From: Planctomycetaceae bacterium
GTDB lineage: Bacteria > Planctomycetota > Planctomycetia > Planctomycetales > Planctomycetaceae
Direction: 5' to 3'
DNA length: 38,631 nt
Assembly: GCA_947476295.1 (NCBI GenBank)
Contig: CANJQC010000044.1
Span: 1-38,631 of the forward strand
The first letter of the stretch is position 1. Each line of letters opens with the position of its first letter. Positions 10,932-31,327 of this stretch are shown here, one piece after another. Under the pieces are notes generated by a model. The model saw nothing but the letters and a program-made list of their open reading frames with translations, did no database searches and was not told the origin of the DNA. The translations under genes and the position numbers were made by a program.

Positions 10932-11879
10932 ATGTCTTCAGCTCTTGTTACTGGTGGAGCCGGGTTTCTGGGCAGTCACCTCTGCGATCGATTGATCGAA
11001 CGTGGTGATGATGTGATCTGCGTGGACAATTTTTTTACCGGGTCAAAGGAAAACGTCCGGCATCTGCTCGGGCATCCTCGCTTTGAACTCATCCGGCACG
11101 ACATTGTGCATCCGCTGTACTTAGAAGCCGAGCGCATCTTCAATCTGGCGTGTCCGGCGTCGCCTGAGGCCTATCAGTTTAATCCCATCAAGACAATCAA
11201 GACCTCCACCGTTGGCATGGTCAACATCATGGGACTGGCCAAACGTTGCGGCGCGCGAGTTCTTCATGCTTCGACATCGGAAGTTTACGGCGACCCGCAG
11301 GTGCATCCTCAGACAGAAGATTATTGGGGCCATGTCAATCCGATCGGGCCTCGCAGTTGCTATGACGAAGGGAAACGCATCGCGGAATCGTTGATGGTGA
11401 ATTATCACGAAGCGCACGGCACAGAGATTCGCATTATTCGTATCTTTAACACGTATGGTCCACGGATGGCACCGGATGACGGGCGAGTTGTCTCAAACTT
11501 TATCATGCAGGCGCTGAAAGGCGAAGACATCACGGTGTACGGGGATGGCCTGCAGACACGATCATTCTGCTTCTGCGATGACCTAATTGCGGGCATGATG
11601 AAGCTCATGGATCAGGACGATCACACCGGGCCGGTAAACATCGGAAATCCCGTGGAAAATACGATGCTGGAATTAGCCCACGCTGTAATCAAGGCTACCG
11701 GCAGCAGGTCAAAAATTGTCCATCGTCCGCTGCCTAAAGACGACCCAAAAAAACGCTGTCCCGATATCACACGGGCAAGAAATTGGCTCGGCTGGGAACC
11801 GCAGGTGGCATTAGCCGACGGTCTGCTGAAGACGATTGAGTGGTACAAGGGAAAAATCGCAATGACGAAATCCAACTGA
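10932..11879 (+). CDS. uxs: UDP-glucuronate decarboxylase (UDP-xylose synthase)
   Basis: Converts UDP-glucuronate to UDP-xylose with bound NAD+, a precursor step for extracellular polysaccharide. The 315-residue product is an extended SDR: the Rossmann motif GGAGFLG is at 8-14, VDNFFTG follows, and [12 protein letters not shown] is typical of this enzyme. The active-site YDEGK has Tyr144 and Lys148, with [10 protein letters not shown] before it and [10 protein letters not shown] after it. AGGA about ten bases upstream supports the ATG at 10932. The stop codon lies inside the first copy of the heptamer repeat that separates it from the 4-epimerase gene, which uses the same substrate. Confidence 0.94.
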
Positions 11880-11943
11880 CAACTGACAACTGACAACTGA
11901 CAACTGACAACTGACAACTGACAACTGACAACTGACAACTGAC
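11874..11943 (+). repeat. Heptanucleotide tandem repeat AACTGAC, 10 perfect copies
   Basis: Ten uninterrupted copies of AACTGAC fill nearly the whole gap between the two nucleotide-sugar genes. The first copy supplies the TGA stop of the decarboxylase, and the last ends six bases before the 4-epimerase ATG. As the unit is seven bases, TGA appears in every forward frame. The perfect copies suggest recent slippage or selection. Confidence 0.98.
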
Positions 11944-11949
11944 ACTAAC

Positions 11950-12954
11950 ATGAAGACCATCCTCGTCACTGGTGTGGCCGGTTTTATCGGCATGCAGACA
12001 GCCGCCCGGTTGCTCGATCGCGGAGACACCGTCATCGGATTTGACAATCTGAACGACTATTATGCGCCGCAGCTAAAACTGGACCGACTTGCTCAGCTGA
12101 CGGGACGTTCCGGCTTTCACTTTGAAAAGCTGGCGCTGGAAGATCGAGAAGGAATGGGGAAACTGTTCGAATCGCACAAATTCGACAGCGTAATTCACCT
12201 GGCGGCTCAAGCCGGAGTTCGCTATTCGCTCACCAATCCCCATGCCTATGTGGATGCGAATCTGGTTGGGTTCATGAACATTCTGGAATGTTGCCGACAT
12301 CAGCACGTCGGCCATCTGACCTATGCGTCCTCAAGTTCCGTGTATGGGGCAAATCGGAAGATACCGTTTTCAGTGGATGATCGAGTGGATCATCCGGTAA
12401 GCCTGTATGCCGCGACAAAAAAAGCCAATGAACTGATGGCGCATGCCTATAGCCATCTGTATGGAATTCCGACGACGGGGCTGAGATTCTTCACGGTCTA
12501 CGGCCCCTGGGGAAGACCGGACATGGCCATATGGATTTTCACCAAAGCCATTCTGAGCGGCCAGCCAATCGATGTCTTCAACCACGGGAAGATGAAACGT
12601 GATTTCACGTTTGTAGCTGATATTGTCGAAGGCGTGATTCGGACCAATGACACGATCCCGACCGCTCAGCCGGTTACGGCCGCTGCTGACGATTCGCAAA
12701 CGTCCGCACCGTACCGCGTTTACAACATCGGCAACAATCAACCGATCGAACTCATGCACCTGATTGAGACGCTCGAGAAGTCGCTTGGTCGCAAAGCGAA
12801 GAAAAATATGCTCCCCATGCAACCGGGTGACGTTCCGGCCACATTCGCTGACATCGATGCGCTTCAACGCGACGTCGGTTTCCGGCCCAGCACACCGATC
12901 GAAGAAGGCGTGCAGAAATTCGTAGATTGGTACAGGCAGTACCACAACTGCTGA
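11950..12954 (+). CDS. UDP-glucuronate 4-epimerase
   Basis: Interconverts UDP-glucuronate and UDP-galacturonate, feeding acidic surface polysaccharide. The 334-residue extended SDR has GVAGFIG at 8-14, FDNLNDYYAP (characteristic of the CapI/LpsL type), HLAAQAGVRYS, the SSSSVYG strand, and the catalytic Tyr153 and Lys157 in YAATKKANE. The VYGPWGRPDMA motif separates this group from GalE. There is no recognisable ribosome binding site, because the space where it should lie is heptamer repeat. Expression may depend on coupling to the upstream decarboxylase, 70 bases away. Family assignment is firm; exact substrate is inferred from motifs. Confidence 0.92.
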   Translation: MKTILVTGVAGFIGMQTAARLLDRGDTVIGFDNLNDYYAPQLKLDRLAQLTGRSGFHFEKLALEDREGMGKLFESHKFDSVIHLAAQAGVRYSLTNPHAYVDANLVGFMNILECCRHQHVGHLTYASSSSVYGANRKIPFSVDDRVDHPVSLYAATKKANELMAHAYSHLYGIPTTGLRFFTVYGPWGRPDMAIWIFTKAILSGQPIDVFNHGKMKRDFTFVADIVEGVIRTNDTIPTAQPVTAAADDSQTSAPYRVYNIGNNQPIELMHLIETLEKSLGRKAKKNMLPMQPGDVPATFADIDALQRDVGFRPSTPIEEGVQKFVDWYRQYHNC

Positions 12955-13557
12955 TCGGGTCAACGAAACAACAACCCCATTTTCCGGTGATTCAGCAGGG
13001 GCGTTGAAAATACGATCTTGTACTCGGAGTGCTGACGCCCTGCCGCTCGCTAGGAAAACTGAGTTCGCGGCCAATAACGGCCAGACGAACTCTGCTTTTC
13101 CAAGTCGAAACAACCATGCCGCCGCCTTCGCCCGGCGACGAGTATCATCGGCCCTTTGCGGCACAATCTCTGCAGCCAGTTTTTTCTGAGAATTCACGGC
13201 AAGCTGCTCACCGGATTCATGAATGATGAGTTCCGGACGCTGCAGTTCTGCAATCAAAACCGGCACGATCTCTGAACGCATTCGCTCGACATGTCGCTAT
13301 ACGAGCGGCAGAGCGTCGGCCTCGATCAGGCAGGCAAGATCTGCGATGGCGTTTGGTGAATCCTGCAACAGAGTTGCAGTAAATCAGTCGAGCCTGCAAA
13401 ATTGCTGACTTTCGGCAGCACTCGAAATTATCCTGGGAACGGCAGAAACTGCCGCAATTGGTTGCAGCGGGCCTTTTCTATTCTGTCAGAACCTGCTGGA
13501 CTGGCAAATCCAGGTATTCCGGGGATTCGATGCGAAATACAGTGCGTCTACTGTTAG
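12955..13557. other. Gene-free stretch, possible decayed coding DNA
   Basis: No convincing gene. A minus-strand frame is open through much of this stretch and on into the 4-epimerase, but its composition is not protein-like in any family I recognise. At 13031-13055 a segment resembling the GAGCGGCAGGGCG core of planctomycete dispersed repeats is present on the minus strand. The rest holds nothing I can identify. Confidence 0.5.
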
Positions 13558-13684
13558 CCAGGAGTCTGTCCCTATACCCGAAAACCGTGAGCCGCAAGGC
13601 GCTAGCCGCGGGTAATTCACCTGCAAGAACCGGCGGTTGGCGCCTTGCCGCTCACAAAAACAGCGTATTCAGACAGACGCTTGG
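13558..13684. repeat. Large imperfect palindrome of a dispersed REP-like repeat
   Basis: The left arm (13558-13613) and right arm (13629-13684), 56 bases each, are inverted copies around a 15-base centre. Shared blocks, read outward-in from both ends, are CCAGGAGTCTGTC / CCAAGCGTCTGTC, then a TATAC / ATACG block, then GTGAGC-GCAAGGCGC and GCCGC-GGT / ACCGCCGGT. Single arms of the same family occur at 29951-30004 and, shorter, at 23042-23071. The core GCGGC-AAGGCGCTA-GCCGC can form its own hairpin, as REP elements do. Confidence 0.85.
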
Positions 13685-13779
13685 ACAATTTCGTCCGGTC
13701 TGGCCATTGTTACGAATCGGAGTTTACCGCCCACATGCGCCAGGCACTGCGACAATCTCGCAAACCTGAGCGAAGCCGC

Positions 13780-23041: not shown

Positions 23042-23071
23042 CTTGTGAGCGGCACGGCGCTAGCCGACAGG
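23042..23071 (+). repeat. Short copy of dispersed REP-like repeat
   Basis: GTGAGCGGCACGGCGCTAGC here matches the core of the arms at 13558-13684 (GTGAGC-GCAAGGCGCTAGCC) and the complement of 29951-30004. The core GCGGC...GCCG can fold as a hairpin. The outer CCAGGAGTCTGTC block of the full element is absent. Confidence 0.65.
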
Positions 23072-26691: not shown

Positions 26692-27468
26692 TCACCACGC
26701 CGAGACAATGAAATCCGGCGAACAATATGCCGGCTGCTCGACGATTCTCTTTCGCCCGAACACCGTTCTCACAGCAGCGACCGGCAGTTGAATCCCGATG
26801 GCCGCAGGTGGTCTTACATGGATCGAATCAATTGGTGGCGTGCGGTCGAATGCGGCGAAGTATTTCCTGAACGCGGATTCGCGAAAATCCGGCACAACAT
26901 GGATTGGGTCAAGGCCGTACCATTTCGGTTCGGGTTCGACAAACTGAATTCCAAATTCAGTGGCCAATTGTCGTGTTATCTCATCCAGCGCCAGGGATCG
27001 TTCAAGAATGGTTGCCCGCGAAAGCGTACAGCCGGGGAAGAGGATCGTCCGAGCGATCAGGAATCGCAGTTTCCCTACCTGTGTGAGTGACGCCAGAGGC
27101 AATCCGGTGATCACGATTCTTGCATCGGATCGCCAAGCCAGAACCTGACTGATACACTGACGGACGGATGCCGCGATCTGATCCGGTTCAAAAAGATAGA
27201 CGATATCATTGCCCACATCCGTGATCAGGACCAGCGGTGGATTCGCAGAGTCCTGCGGCAAGTGATCCCACAATCCACAGTCGCAGATTGCCGGTAACTG
27301 ACGAAACCAGAATGCGCTGGTTTTGACATAAGACCGTCCCATCCCCAGCGCGACGTTCAGATTGATGGGATCGGCGGTAACAAGTCGGAGCGAGTCGATC
27401 AGAGATCGCCACCCCAGCACCAGATTGCTGGCTCCCAGCAGCACTACGTCTTGTGTATTTATGGTCAA
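26692..27468 (-). CDS. SGNH/GDSL-like hydrolase family protein
   Basis: A 258-residue protein with the block pattern of SGNH hydrolases: VVLLGASNLVLGW (block I, with Ala in place of the usual Asp, Ser kept), GMGRSYV (block II region), LITDVGNDIVYLF (block III with Asn), and DPIHVVPDF (block V Asp and His). It could be an esterase or acetylhydrolase; the substrate is unknown. The start codon is TTG at 27468, which overlaps the stop of the upstream TPR protein in TTGA, so the pair is probably translationally coupled. No signal peptide, so it is likely cytoplasmic. Confidence 0.8.
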   Translation of the reverse strand: MTINTQDVVLLGASNLVLGWRSLIDSLRLVTADPINLNVALGMGRSYVKTSAFWFRQLPAICDCGLWDHLPQDSANPPLVLITDVGNDIVYLFEPDQIAASVRQCISQVLAWRSDARIVITGLPLASLTQVGKLRFLIARTILFPGCTLSRATILERSLALDEITRQLATEFGIQFVEPEPKWYGLDPIHVVPDFRESAFRKYFAAFDRTPPIDSIHVRPPAAIGIQLPVAAVRTVFGRKRIVEQPAYCSPDFIVSAW

Positions 27469-29897
27469 TGGACACTCGTGAAAACAGTGATCAAATCATC
27501 CGCAATGGTGGCATTGACAGCGTGAGTGGCGGGATTCAAGGAATCAAAAGAAATGAGTCGCCGGCCTTCCTTGATCAGAAAATCTGTGTCCATGAACGGT
27601 TCGTAGCTGATATCCTGCCAGCGAATTTTTCCATGGGCATCAATCACGAATGTTCCGTGCAGCGCAGCTTTTTCGAAGTCGTCGTAACAACGATACTCCC
27701 GGAAGATTTTCATCTCCGGATCGGCCACCAGTGGAAACGGAAACTCGTTTTCCAGACTCTCACAGGCACGCTTCAGATTGATTTGCTCATCTGTGCTGAT
27801 CGCGATGACTTCGAAACCCGCCGCACGAATGTCGCCAGACTTCTTCGCAATCGCCTGCAATTGCTCCGCACAGTGCAGGCAACCGTAACCCAGATAGAAG
27901 ACCACGATGACCGGACTGCCCTGATAGTCGCTCAGCGAACGGGGCTTTCCATCTGAATCCGGCAGTGCCCATTCAGGAGCATCGCGCGGAGACCATCGAA
28001 ACGGTCCCAGCGAATCCAGATTTGGCCGCGTGCCAATATCAGCGGGCACGTCATGCGGAAGTCGCCAGTCGGCTGGATATCCGAATTCGGCGGCCATCGG
28101 TGCCAGCCGCATTATCGGTGCGACATCGAGATCGACCGTGGATGAAACCTTCCGAAGCTGCTCAAACACCGACTTCGCTTCGTCTTTCCTGCCCGCTGCG
28201 TACATCGCTTCAATCTGACTGCCCAGCGCCCGAACTTCACCTGGATTGGATTTTACATTCTCCTCTGCCTTCTTTAACGCATCATCAGTCCTGCCCGCTC
28301 GAAGCATGGCGGCAATCAGATCATCGCTGGAGACACTGGCCTTTGTGAACAGGTCGAGCGCTCGTTCATTCTCGCCTTTTTGAGCGGCGATGCGACCGTC
28401 AATTTCGAGCGTGGCTTTTTCAAAGCCTTCAATCCTTCCCTTGAACTTGCTCTCAGCGTCTTTCTTTGCCTTCTCAATCGCCGCGTCATCAGACTTCGCT
28501 TCACGAGCCTTCGTTTCCGCCTGAGTGACAGCCGTCGCTTGTTTCTGTTTTTCTTCTTCAAGCAGCTTCTGCAGACGATCTCGATAAACAGCAGCGCTGG
28601 TGTCGTCTCCGGTGGCCGTGAGTGCTGAACCGACAGCTCGATCGCGACTTAGGTCTGCATCCGCATCACCAGTATCTTCCAGCCATGTCGTGCCGTTCAA
28701 TGCGGCCAGCGTTTCGTACATTTCGAAACTCCGCAGCACATTGATGAGCCGATCGCGTCCGTACTTAAAGCTACCGGATTTCTCGAGCGAATTGTATTTC
28801 GGATGGCGAGGCAGGCTGAGCATGTTTCGCGCGAGTGCCTCAGCATTGTGGGCACGCCCGATCGAGATCATGTTGCGAATACACCATTCGTTGTTGTGCG
28901 CAAAGTTGTGGATCTGATCAGGAAGAACTCGGTCACGCATCATGTGAAAATGATCGACGCGGGCCGACGCTTCCTGCTGATACACGGCGTCATGATAGCG
29001 GTGCAGCTTCGAATAGATATGCCCCGGCATGTGCCACATGTGAGCAATCGAAGGGGCAGCCAGGCCAGCTATTGCAGCGGATTTCAGAGCCAACTCAGGC
29101 TTCTTGCTGTCCCACAGGTGAATCCGATAATGATGCACGGGATGCAGAGGTTCGATATCCAGTACCTGCTGTATCATGGCATCGATGCTCAGATGCGACG
29201 CCATCTGGAGGCCGTCGCGTTTTCCGGACCAGAAATACTCACACAGAAATGCCTTCGTTTCAATGTCATCAGGGAACGCGATCAGAATTTCTTCTAGGTC
29301 ACCGACGTACTTGTCGGCTCGCTCCTTCTTCTGTTCGTCGTTGTCTGCTTTGGCATTGATGAACCGATCAAACGTTTCAATCAGCATCTGTTCCCGCTTT
29401 TCCACTTTGTCTTTCCGCTTCACGGCTTCAGCGATGAATCCTTTCGCGCGCTTGTCGTTACTGCGGTTTGACATGGCCATGCCCCAATAGGCCGTCGCGC
29501 AGTCAGGATCCAACATGGCGGCTTGTCGAAACGAGCGTTCTGATTCAAAGTACCAGAACCCATGCAACTGGGCCACACCCTGCTCAATGAACTTTCGTGC
29601 TTCGGCCTTCGATGTCGTCACAGGGAATTTCACGACGCCGCACCCGTTCATCAGCCAAGCTGCCTGACGCGGCCCTTCATTGAACACCTCACCGTGGACG
29701 GAATGCCCTTCTTTTATTGCATCATCGGAGGGTTTGGTTTCCGCTGGACTTTCTGGTTCGACGACCGGCGTTGCTGTCTCTTGGCCAGTGGCATTCCGAA
29801 TTGATCCAGACGAGGTCATTTCAAGCAGTACGATGGCCGCGAAGATTGAGTGTGACAGGCGTTGTGTGAAGCAAAAGCCCATGCCGGGACCAATCAT
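27465..29897 (-). CDS. TPR protein with C-terminal thioredoxin/peroxiredoxin-like domain
   Basis: An 810-residue protein. A hydrophobic N-terminus (LSHSIFAAIVLLEM) suggests export or membrane attachment. Residues about 85-560 are TPR-like helical repeats (FWYFESERSFRQAAMLDPDCATAYWGMAMS, HMWHMPGHIYSKLHRYHDAV) with a charged coiled-coil insert (EEEKQKQATAVTQAETK). From about 635 an AhpC/TSA-type fold follows, with FYLGYGCLHCAEQL; Cys673 and Cys676 form a CxxC pair. The open frame extends to 30017, but its first 40 codons translate the dispersed repeat at 29951-30004, so ATG 29897 (or 29882) is taken. It lies in a minus-strand run with an oxidoreductase and an SGNH hydrolase. The partner it reduces is unknown. 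Confidence 0.87.
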   Translation of the reverse strand: MIGPGMGFCFTQRLSHSIFAAIVLLEMTSSGSIRNATGQETATPVVEPESPAETKPSDDAIKEGHSVHGEVFNEGPRQAAWLMNGCGVVKFPVTTSKAEARKFIEQGVAQLHGFWYFESERSFRQAAMLDPDCATAYWGMAMSNRSNDKRAKGFIAEAVKRKDKVEKREQMLIETFDRFINAKADNDEQKKERADKYVGDLEEILIAFPDDIETKAFLCEYFWSGKRDGLQMASHLSIDAMIQQVLDIEPLHPVHHYRIHLWDSKKPELALKSAAIAGLAAPSIAHMWHMPGHIYSKLHRYHDAVYQQEASARVDHFHMMRDRVLPDQIHNFAHNNEWCIRNMISIGRAHNAEALARNMLSLPRHPKYNSLEKSGSFKYGRDRLINVLRSFEMYETLAALNGTTWLEDTGDADADLSRDRAVGSALTATGDDTSAAVYRDRLQKLLEEEKQKQATAVTQAETKAREAKSDDAAIEKAKKDAESKFKGRIEGFEKATLEIDGRIAAQKGENERALDLFTKASVSSDDLIAAMLRAGRTDDALKKAEENVKSNPGEVRALGSQIEAMYAAGRKDEAKSVFEQLRKVSSTVDLDVAPIMRLAPMAAEFGYPADWRLPHDVPADIGTRPNLDSLGPFRWSPRDAPEWALPDSDGKPRSLSDYQGSPVIVVFYLGYGCLHCAEQLQAIAKKSGDIRAAGFEVIAISTDEQINLKRACESLENEFPFPLVADPEMKIFREYRCYDDFEKAALHGTFVIDAHGKIRWQDISYEPFMDTDFLIKEGRRLISFDSLNPATHAVNATIADDLITVFTSVH

Positions 29898-29950
29898 TGT
29901 GAGCGGTACGTCGCCAAGCCGATGTACATTGCAGAAATACCTGAAAAAAT

Positions 29951-30004
29951 GGCGGCTACCGCCTTGCCGCTCACAAGAGCTGCGGTATTGAGACAGACTC
30001 CTGG
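29951..30004 (-). repeat. Single arm of dispersed REP-like repeat
   Basis: Read on the minus strand, this copy starts CCAGGAGTCTGTC and contains TTGTGAGCGGCAAGGCGG and TAGCCGCC. It aligns over its whole length with the right arm at 13629-13684 with one or two small gaps. It fills most of the gap between the Gfo/Idh/MocA gene and the true start of the TPR gene. Confidence 0.85.
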
Positions 30005-30013
30005 CCGATCCGC

Positions 30014-31327
30014 TCAAACAAACGGCGTCCTGCCGGGGACGGCTACTGGCGGTACGGGATTATCGGTCCATTCATAGGCTTTCGGACGGAGGTCTTCTTT
30101 TGAATTCAGTACCGCGTCCCAGGTGAGACGCTGGCCAGTGTAGCCTGCCATCCGTCCGGCGATCGCCAACATCGTACTCTTGCACATGTAGTCGCCATTG
30201 TTGATCGGGTGACCACTGCGAATACTGGCGAACAATTCGTTGTGCTCGATCTGATACATGTCACCATCCGGGCCGTCATACTTCCAGATCACATTGCCAG
30301 CATGGTCCTCAATCTTGTGACTCATCACATTGACACGGCCCTTCGTGCCAAAAATATAGTCTTCGACTTCATTCTCACAGTTTGGCCAGTGACGGCAACG
30401 CGCGAATGCCTTGACTCCACTCGGCCAGGTATAAACGATGTCAAAATGGTCAAAAATGTTGCCGTATTTTTCATCGGTGCGAACCTGACGACCGCCCGAA
30501 CCACTGATTGACTCCGGCACTTCATCGTTCATCGCCCACATCATCTTGTCCAAGCTATGGATGTGCTGTTCGACGTTAAAGTCACCGGAAAGCCATGTGT
30601 AGTAGTACCAGTTGCGAATCTGGTACTCCATTTCGCTGTCGCATTTGTCTCGCGTGCGACGCGGATCCCACACGCCGCTCGACATGTAACTGCACTGCAT
30701 CGTAACAATGTCACCGATCGCGCCGTTCCTGATTTGTTCAAACGTAGCCCGCTTGCCTGGGTGATAACGCCAGCACAGACCCGACACGAGAGCCAGTCCT
30801 TTGGTCTTGGCCATCTCAGACGATTCCATCACTGACCGCACACCCGGTGCATCGACGGCGACTGGTTTTTCGCAGAACACATGTTTACCGGCCTCCACAG
30901 CAGCACGCAGATGCTGTGGTCGAAAATGTGGCGTTTCGGCCAGCAGCACCACGTCAGACTTTTCAATCACTCGCAGATAATTATCGAAGCCTGAGTAACA
31001 GGTGTCATCGGAAACTGTCACTCGGGGCGTCACGCCGTCCTTATTGAACATGCGTGTCAAAGATCGACGGCCACGTTCAGCTGAGTCTGCAAAGATATCT
31101 CCGATCGCAACAAGTTCCGTGCCGGGATCAGCATTCAGAGCCTGCTCAGCCGCCCCAGTGCCTCGCCCGCCGCAACCGACAAGTCCCACCTTAAGCAGAT
31201 CGCTGCCTGCCGCGAAGGCGCCGGCATGGAGCGGCATTGAAATGGCAGTCAAAGTTGCGCAACCAACTGCCGTTGCGGCCAAAAAATTGCGTCGGGACGG
31301 TTCGGTCAGTGACGGAGTGGTTTGCAT
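30014..31327 (-). CDS. Gfo/Idh/MocA family oxidoreductase, TAT-exported
   Basis: A 437-residue NAD(P)-dependent sugar-type oxidoreductase. The N-terminus SRRNFLAATAVGCATLTA is a twin-arginine signal with a hydrophobic core, so it probably crosses the membrane folded. The Rossmann motif VGLVGCGGRGTG, the family motif VFCEKPVAVD (catalytic Lys) and the C-terminal substrate domain (AMNDEVPESISGSGGRQ and onward) are present. Planctomycetes have many such exported paralogs; the substrates of most are unknown. ATG 31327 is preceded by AGGTGG. The stop lies about 116 bases from the TPR gene start, a gap filled by the repeat. Confidence 0.92.
   Translation of the reverse strand: MQTTPSLTEPSRRNFLAATAVGCATLTAISMPLHAGAFAAGSDLLKVGLVGCGGRGTGAAEQALNADPGTELVAIGDIFADSAERGRRSLTRMFNKDGVTPRVTVSDDTCYSGFDNYLRVIEKSDVVLLAETPHFRPQHLRAAVEAGKHVFCEKPVAVDAPGVRSVMESSEMAKTKGLALVSGLCWRYHPGKRATFEQIRNGAIGDIVTMQCSYMSSGVWDPRRTRDKCDSEMEYQIRNWYYYTWLSGDFNVEQHIHSLDKMMWAMNDEVPESISGSGGRQVRTDEKYGNIFDHFDIVYTWPSGVKAFARCRHWPNCENEVEDYIFGTKGRVNVMSHKIEDHAGNVIWKYDGPDGDMYQIEHNELFASIRSGHPINNGDYMCKSTMLAIAGRMAGYTGQRLTWDAVLNSKEDLRPKAYEWTDNPVPPVAVPGRTPFV

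Follow-up and report, generated by a model that had tools for sequence, protein, structure and literature searches.

A REP pair of the class-3-like RAYT kind in a Planctomycetaceae genome and transposase genes bracketed by the same repeat in related planctomycetes

The window analysed here, a stretch of 38,631 nucleotides from a Planctomycetaceae bacterium (GenBank assembly GCA_947476295.1, contig CANJQC010000044.1), contains a large palindrome. On one side of it is an epimerase gene (11950-12954), on the other an open frame that probably starts at 13735 or 13780, two positions that share one frame and are both matched in two congeners. The palindrome has the geometry given in the preliminary description, with two 56-base arms (13558-13613 and 13629-13684) facing each other around a 15-base centre (13614-13628). 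It is composed of two inverted copies of a 27-base REP of the GTGAGCGGCAAGGCGCTAGCCGCCGGT type, here called REP-A, and carries a 13-base block at each outer end (Table 1). At hairpin positions 6 and 23 the left unit carries C and G, the reverse of the G and C of the commonest form. In the predicted single-strand DNA fold of the palindrome 41 of the 56 arm positions are paired, and the fold energy of -33.3 kcal/mol compares with a shuffle mean of -18.1 (sd 2.8, z -5.49); 0 of 200 shuffles folded as well. A scan of the window at Rfam gathering scores returned one tRNA only, the palindrome being without match. Tandem CAACTGA heptamers, which could vary in length, occupy positions 11873-11949, immediately 5' of the epimerase ATG at 11950.

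Table 1. Repeat features located in the window (coordinates are those of the whole stretch)
Feature	Position	Strand	Basis
REP pair (BIME/REPIN), extended outer arms, short-spacer type	13558..13684		Fold z -5.5; orthologous locus shorter by about 122 nt in G081 and G147
Left REP-A unit GTGAGCCGCAAGGCGCTAGCCGCGGGT	13587..13613	+	1 mismatch in 22-base core
Right REP-A unit, inverted	13629..13655	-	2 mismatches in 22-base core
Left outer block CCAGGAGTCTGTC	13558..13570	+	Long-form copies in G000, G147 and G081 carry similar blocks at either end
Right outer block, minus-strand reading CCAAGCGTCTGTC	13672..13684	-	Sequence; outer-block comparison
Single REP-A unit	23042..23071	+	Core 23046-23067
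Second, decayed REP pair, long-spacer type	29900..30004		Left REP 29900-29921 (+), right core 29952-29973 (-), outer block 29992-30004 (-)
REP-B copy GAGCGGYDGGGCGTCAGCCCTCCGDGT	13022..13048	-	Second REP family search

The 22-base core of REP-A, TGAGCGGCAAGGCGCTAGCCGC, was found at 44 places with at most three mismatches in the 5.99 Mb assembly (252 contigs), compared with 0 for the reversed-pattern control, which bears out the dispersed family that had been proposed from at least three loci in 38 kb. Four of these 44 copies lie in the window (13588 +, 13633 -, 23046 + and 29952 -). The third of them corresponds to the arm core that had been noticed there, and is indeed a single REP-A unit, with neither partner nor outer block in the 121 bases around it. 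The sequence at 29951-30004 had been described as an arm standing alone; it is preceded by a decayed left REP and a conserved long spacer, and is therefore the right half of a second pair. This second pair, within 29900-30017, lies in the 5'-terminal part of a long open frame (27465-30017, minus strand, TTG start), whose true start is probably further inside than the TTG.

REP-A pairs at most 100 bp apart were in +/- order in 10 out of 10 cases in this genome, with start-to-start distances of 45 bp (two pairs), 53-55 bp (six) and 90 bp (two). The two 90-bp pairs, on contigs C30 and C227, are near-identical and close to contig ends, and may represent one element at a contig overlap. Two main spacer types are found, a short one, as in the palindrome, and a long one, as in the second pair. 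With a short palindrome, many dispersed copies and inverted pairs at regular spacing, REP-A is a member of the REP/BIME group.

In related genomes REP-A is associated with a transposase gene. A Y1 gene is located between a plus and a minus copy of the core in genome G070, and likewise in G132. The two proteins are 63% identical; they are weak members of the Pfam Y1_Tnp family (24 and 33 bits, cut-off 23) and fall far under the NCBI RAYT model NF047646 (18.4 and 13.5 bits, cut-off 80). A search with the G070 protein found relatives in at least 79 of 150 genomes of the family. The close clade was defined as 12 near full-length loci with 56-100% identity, excluding a few fragments from G097, G103, G083 and G015 that reach a similar identity across 19-36 residues. 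REP-A cores (at most five mismatches) were present within 300 bp on both sides of 11 of the 12 clade loci, the exception being L131, while among 40 other Y1 loci used as control (11 from the window's own genome and 29 from REP-rich relatives) none had REP-A on both sides and two had it on one side within 500 bp. A cognate RAYT flanked by the same REP, a hallmark of REP/BIME systems, is thus found in the relatives. The clade protein was modelled with a pLDDT of 87.9, and its best 30 PDB matches were all titled transposases, mostly IS608, ISDra2 and IS200; the RAYT-REP complex 4er8 came at rank 19 (TM 0.56, rmsd 3.2), with TM-scores by query length of approximately 0.5-0.56. The earlier proposal of a BIME-like unit moved by a Y1 (RAYT) transposase elsewhere in the genome therefore holds as to the kind of system, and not as to the place, since the matching clade was found in other genomes only.

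The structure of the repeat was examined in 94 distinct 28-mers from 59 loci (out of 140 loci of relatives), which were picked solely by the loop decamer GGCGCTAGCC. Covariation in this set supports a hairpin whose lower stem pairs 5-7 with 22-24 and whose upper stem pairs 10-13 with 18-21 (three of the upper pairs are fixed by the decamer selection), with a bulge of two bases (8-9) between the stems and a GCTA loop. Pair 10-21 is standard in 66 of the 94 sequences (shuffled mean 37.3, z 7.7), with C-G, G-C, T-A and A-T all represented and an A-G mismatch (the AA form) in 21, and pair 6-23 is standard in 81 (shuffled mean 49.1, z 7.2), as G-C and C-G. The lower-stem pairs 7-22 (z 1.1) and 5-24 (z 2.2) are nearly invariant and contribute little, and eight slid pairings taken as comparison gave z values from -2.8 to 2.6. 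Single REP units are predicted to fold into the same hairpin shape, with an energy modestly better than that of shuffles (z -0.8 to -1.5). The E. coli enzyme is described as requiring the bulge of its hairpin (PMC8266576), which makes the bulge of REP-A a reasonable candidate for a recognition feature. Conservation extends from the base before TGA to CGGT and then stops, in 64 distinct copies from clade loci that had been pre-filtered for T[GACT]AGC. For the foot itself we preferred counts made without this filter, and these gave GTGA in 30, CTGA in 6 and TTGA in 5 of 53 distinct clade-locus copies. The GT[AG]G tetranucleotide that marks the 5' foot of GTAG REPs is absent from REP-A.

REP-A cores are present in 69 of the 150 family genomes, in numbers ranging from 0 to 383 copies, the reversed control reaching at most 3 per genome. 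In a phylum sample of 294 genomes, 277 of them outside the family, a single outside genome had five or more copies (G416, with 10); the others had at most three, a number also obtained with the reversed control. Within this sample REP-A is therefore patchy and largely confined to one planctomycete family. All 12 genomes with the close RAYT clade contain REP-A (1 to 262 copies), and ten or more copies are present in 10 of these 12 compared with 30 of the other 138 (Mann-Whitney p = 2.9e-6, a statistic that ignores kinship). These 30 genomes, in which a close clade member was not found, carry what appear to be orphan families.

At the orthologous intergenic locus of the two congeners G081 and G147, approximately 122 nt are missing (13560-13681, the ends being uncertain by a few bases) while both flanks align; a second two-row alignment placed some pieces of the gap differently. 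A target duplication is not visible at this one site, as compared with divergent relatives. A gain in the lineage of the window would be a simpler reading than a loss in two congeners. This polymorphism also bears on the view that the palindrome is retained for a host function, such as transcription end, mRNA 3' stability or nucleoid binding, and spreads passively. Its position between the epimerase gene and the open frame and its strong predicted hairpin would suit such a role, which nevertheless appears very improbable for an element that is absent from the same place in two congeners, has no Rfam match at gathering score and varies so widely in copy number across the genomes of one family.

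A contig scan with the alignment of the 12 clade proteins yielded 349 relatives, of which 80 were kept, including loci from Fuerstiella, Botrimarina, Neorhodopirellula, Rubripirellula, Rhodopirellula, Blastopirellula and Alienimonas (R. baltica, referred to below, is a planctomycete). Two loci were dropped for short flanks. Among the 78 others, inverted arms with a score of at least 12 surround 62 genes, compared with 3 of 78 control windows, which were drawn at random with no fixed seed. Many of the more distant genes are bracketed by another type of arm, for example AACCCGACGCGTAAGCGAGG (L163-L230; Rhodopirellula and relatives among others). Protein similarity and arm similarity were correlated in a Mantel test on the 58 of 78 loci with an arm score of at least 15 (rho 0.56, matched in 0 of 2000 permutations; rho 0.47 among pairs more than 40% apart), the sequences in this test, as in the others, sharing descent and hence not being independent. 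REP and transposase diverge together.

The residues N85, H86, H88, W125, Y146 and Q151 are invariant in 28 of 28 aligned proteins, and an N-terminal block, WLPGD.RG, is conserved. The HUH motif, the W, the Y----Q and the extended N-terminal conservation by which class 3 TnpA-Y1 proteins are defined (PMC6006769) are thus all present. Compared with the motifs tabulated in the same source for class 3 (NHVH, W[TA] and YV[VI][AENY]EQ), the first motif is mostly NHVH and also NHCH, NHLH, NHIH or NHMH, the W is followed by T, S or A, and the Y motif ends mostly in EAQ, where the table has EQ. Because the proteins fit in their HUH, W and Y----Q motifs while the Q mostly follows EA rather than E, they are here called class-3-like. 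As to the foot of the flanking structures, the CnGA given in that source is represented by CTGA in 6 of the 53 copies, GTGA accounting for 30, and the arms of distant relatives often contain CCCGA at a deduced foot position.

A member of the close clade was not found in the assembly of the window (G000), where the best tblastn hit had 29% identity and a profile search returned one locus, the REP-B RAYT described below. None of the 11 Y1 genes of this genome has REP-A at up to five mismatches in its 1.5 kb flanks (in three cases the contig ends early on one side, leaving 834, 668 and 199 bases). The clade was not found either in G147 and G081, where the extended, long form of the pair is also seen; two relatives at a greater distance (45 and 41%) do occur in G081, with other repeats around them. 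Genome G128, of the same genus, does possess the close clade, and among the matches listed for it the REP part is covered and the outer blocks are not. In the genome under study REP-A looks orphaned and is probably inactive. The extended form may stem from a RAYT that has been lost or that is carried by another replicon, or from an unknown outer-block transposase; it is also possible that a RAYT was missed through a gap in the assembly, which consists of 252 contigs.

The same genome contains a second REP family, REP-B (GAGCGGYDGGGCGTCAGCCCTCCGDGT), with 79 copies at up to three mismatches (control 0), whose neighbouring pairs within 250 bp are in +/- order in 17 out of 17 cases. A RAYT-like gene (C111:11909-12388) lies among REP-B repeats, with inverted pairs around it (L294, positions 10500-14000 of C111), so that a REP family with a RAYT-like gene exists beside the apparently orphan REP-A. 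Positions 12955-13440 of the window, approximately 486 bp that contain a REP-B copy, are missing from G081 or cannot be aligned there, in a stretch bounded by the same neighbours. The presence of the REP-B RAYT, together with the likeness of REP-A and REP-B in sequence and predicted hairpin shape, could suggest that REP-A is or was moved across families by this or another RAYT of its own genome. We hold this to be unlikely, given that REP and RAYT co-diverge, and that none of the six RAYT-like loci of G000, G147 and G081 has REP-A or outer-block arms, while five are clearly bracketed by inverted arms of a different repeat type and the sixth has no clear arms. One of the six has, approximately 540 bp upstream, a weak REP-A-like match that resembles REP-B.

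The outer 13-base block, which is found in at least 3 of 18 genomes of the genus among the matches listed, is present at either end of the long-form copies of G000, G147 and G081, some copies being without a recognisable end. It had been regarded as part of the repeat, a view at odds with the conservation around the matching transposase genes, which ends at the 27-base REP. The pair does have terminal inverted repeats, one of the marks of a MITE of a DDE insertion sequence, and the 122-bp unit could be a MITE whose 13-base blocks serve a DDE transposase as recognition sites for its movement, with the REPs as passengers. Three observations speak for this alternative: the blocks stand outside the REPs at both ends of the unit in three genomes, the REPs beside RAYT genes are without them, and searches of those three genomes gave no member of the close RAYT clade. 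The parental insertion sequence ending in CCAGGAGTCTGTC that had been suggested is, however, unsupported so far. By pattern search in its own genome, no IS with these ends was recovered; the block had 15 matches with at most one mismatch, 8 of them beside REP-A and 7 away from it, compared with 8 in the reversed control, and only one of these 7 had a facing second copy in the flank examined (at most three mismatches), itself with three mismatches. Given also that no target duplication is visible at the one site compared with divergent relatives, and that REP cores occur in many genomes of the family, a MITE origin appears unlikely. L037, one of the seven matches away from REP-A, has the look of a degenerate copy of the family.

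Another small element is often found inserted at CTAG in REP loops. In five stretches (L295-L299) an insert whose inverted ends are of the type CGGTCTGTTGATTTAA interrupts the loop of a REP at CTAG or close to it. At up to one mismatch this end occurs 22 times in G000, 73 times in G147 and 9 times in G081 (control 0). Thirty loci (L301-L330) contained 48 ends at up to three mismatches, 20 of them directly after CTAG; in this count both ends of one element are taken separately and some may be due to chance. For the 35 ends that have a partner end, mostly at 109-129 bp, CTAG is present on both sides in 10 and the same four bases in 14. The CTAG target is one that we take to resemble that of the IS5 family. 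Some copies of the element carry other REP-like palindromes. The insertion of IS elements into REPs has been described for other bacteria (PMC1525189).

The palindrome at 13558-13684 is a true REP pair and belongs to the class-3-like RAYT kind, which is known but thinly described. Our main reading, to which we assign a probability of roughly 0.8, is that it is a non-autonomous REP pair (BIME/REPIN) of this type, and that such pairs were spread by a RAYT, or by a relative of it that has since been lost or is on another replicon. The 27-base REP would, as single-stranded DNA, form the hairpin with its NTGA foot (mostly GTGA), lower stem, two-base bulge, upper stem and GCTA loop. Its cognate transposase would be the class-3-like Y1 HUH RAYT found between REP-A copies in related planctomycetes, which is presumed to bind and cleave the hairpin. 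This RAYT, or the lost or displaced relative, would have copied or moved REP pairs via single-stranded intermediates, and the pairs would enter intergenic DNA without target duplication.

A more far-reaching scenario, which we put forward tentatively and consider possible rather than probable, is that a third, distinct RAYT-REP lineage (class 3) exists in the planctomycetes, every transposase clade of it evolving together with a non-GTAG hairpin of its own. Within the genus of the window one pair might then have acquired 13-base inverted caps and turned into an independent mobile unit of 122 bp, one that survives its transposase, while the GCTAGC loop might serve as the landing pad for the second small element carrying further REPs. 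Many loci are now available, with defined transposase-repeat pairs and a hairpin that two covarying base pairs support, so that it becomes directly testable how a repeat lacking a GTAG guide is recognised; the apparent orphan families allow a test of the lifetime of REP populations after transposase loss.

Of the systems described, the one that most directly compares is that of the class 3 TnpA-Y1 or REPtron-like loci (Quentin et al. 2018, PMC6006769), described there from 24 sequences, with flanking structures called atypical and weaker and an origin and behaviour said to need more experiments. The two share a Y1 protein with NHxH, W and Y----Q motifs, a similar size (about 158 amino acids here, 155 profile positions there), main hosts that include the Planctomycetes, flanking hairpins whose foot is not GT[AG]G and a high copy number. 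They differ in the Y motif, here mostly Y...EAQ instead of YV[VI][AENY]EQ, and in the foot, most commonly GTGA here and CnGA there; covariation, co-divergence and an extended 122-bp pair, reported here, were not found in the text of that paper. With the RAYT-REP/BIME systems set out by Nunvar et al. (2010, PMC2817692) our loci have in common a RAYT gene between inverted REPs, and REPs that are dispersed and often in inverted pairs; unlike those, REP-A has no GT(A/G)G head and the protein is far from NCBI RAYT model NF047646. A REP-A sequence was not found in the text of the literature on tyrosine transposases and planctomycetes, figures and supplements aside, nor a REP-A-like one in that of the study of GTAG REPs and TIR-associated tyrosine transposases (Di Nocera et al. 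2013, PMC3733652), with the same reservation. The text of the latter does describe two situations similar to ours: several REP families together with many Y1 genes in R. baltica, and, in two pseudomonads, inverted repeats that are degenerate REPs joined to other hairpins.
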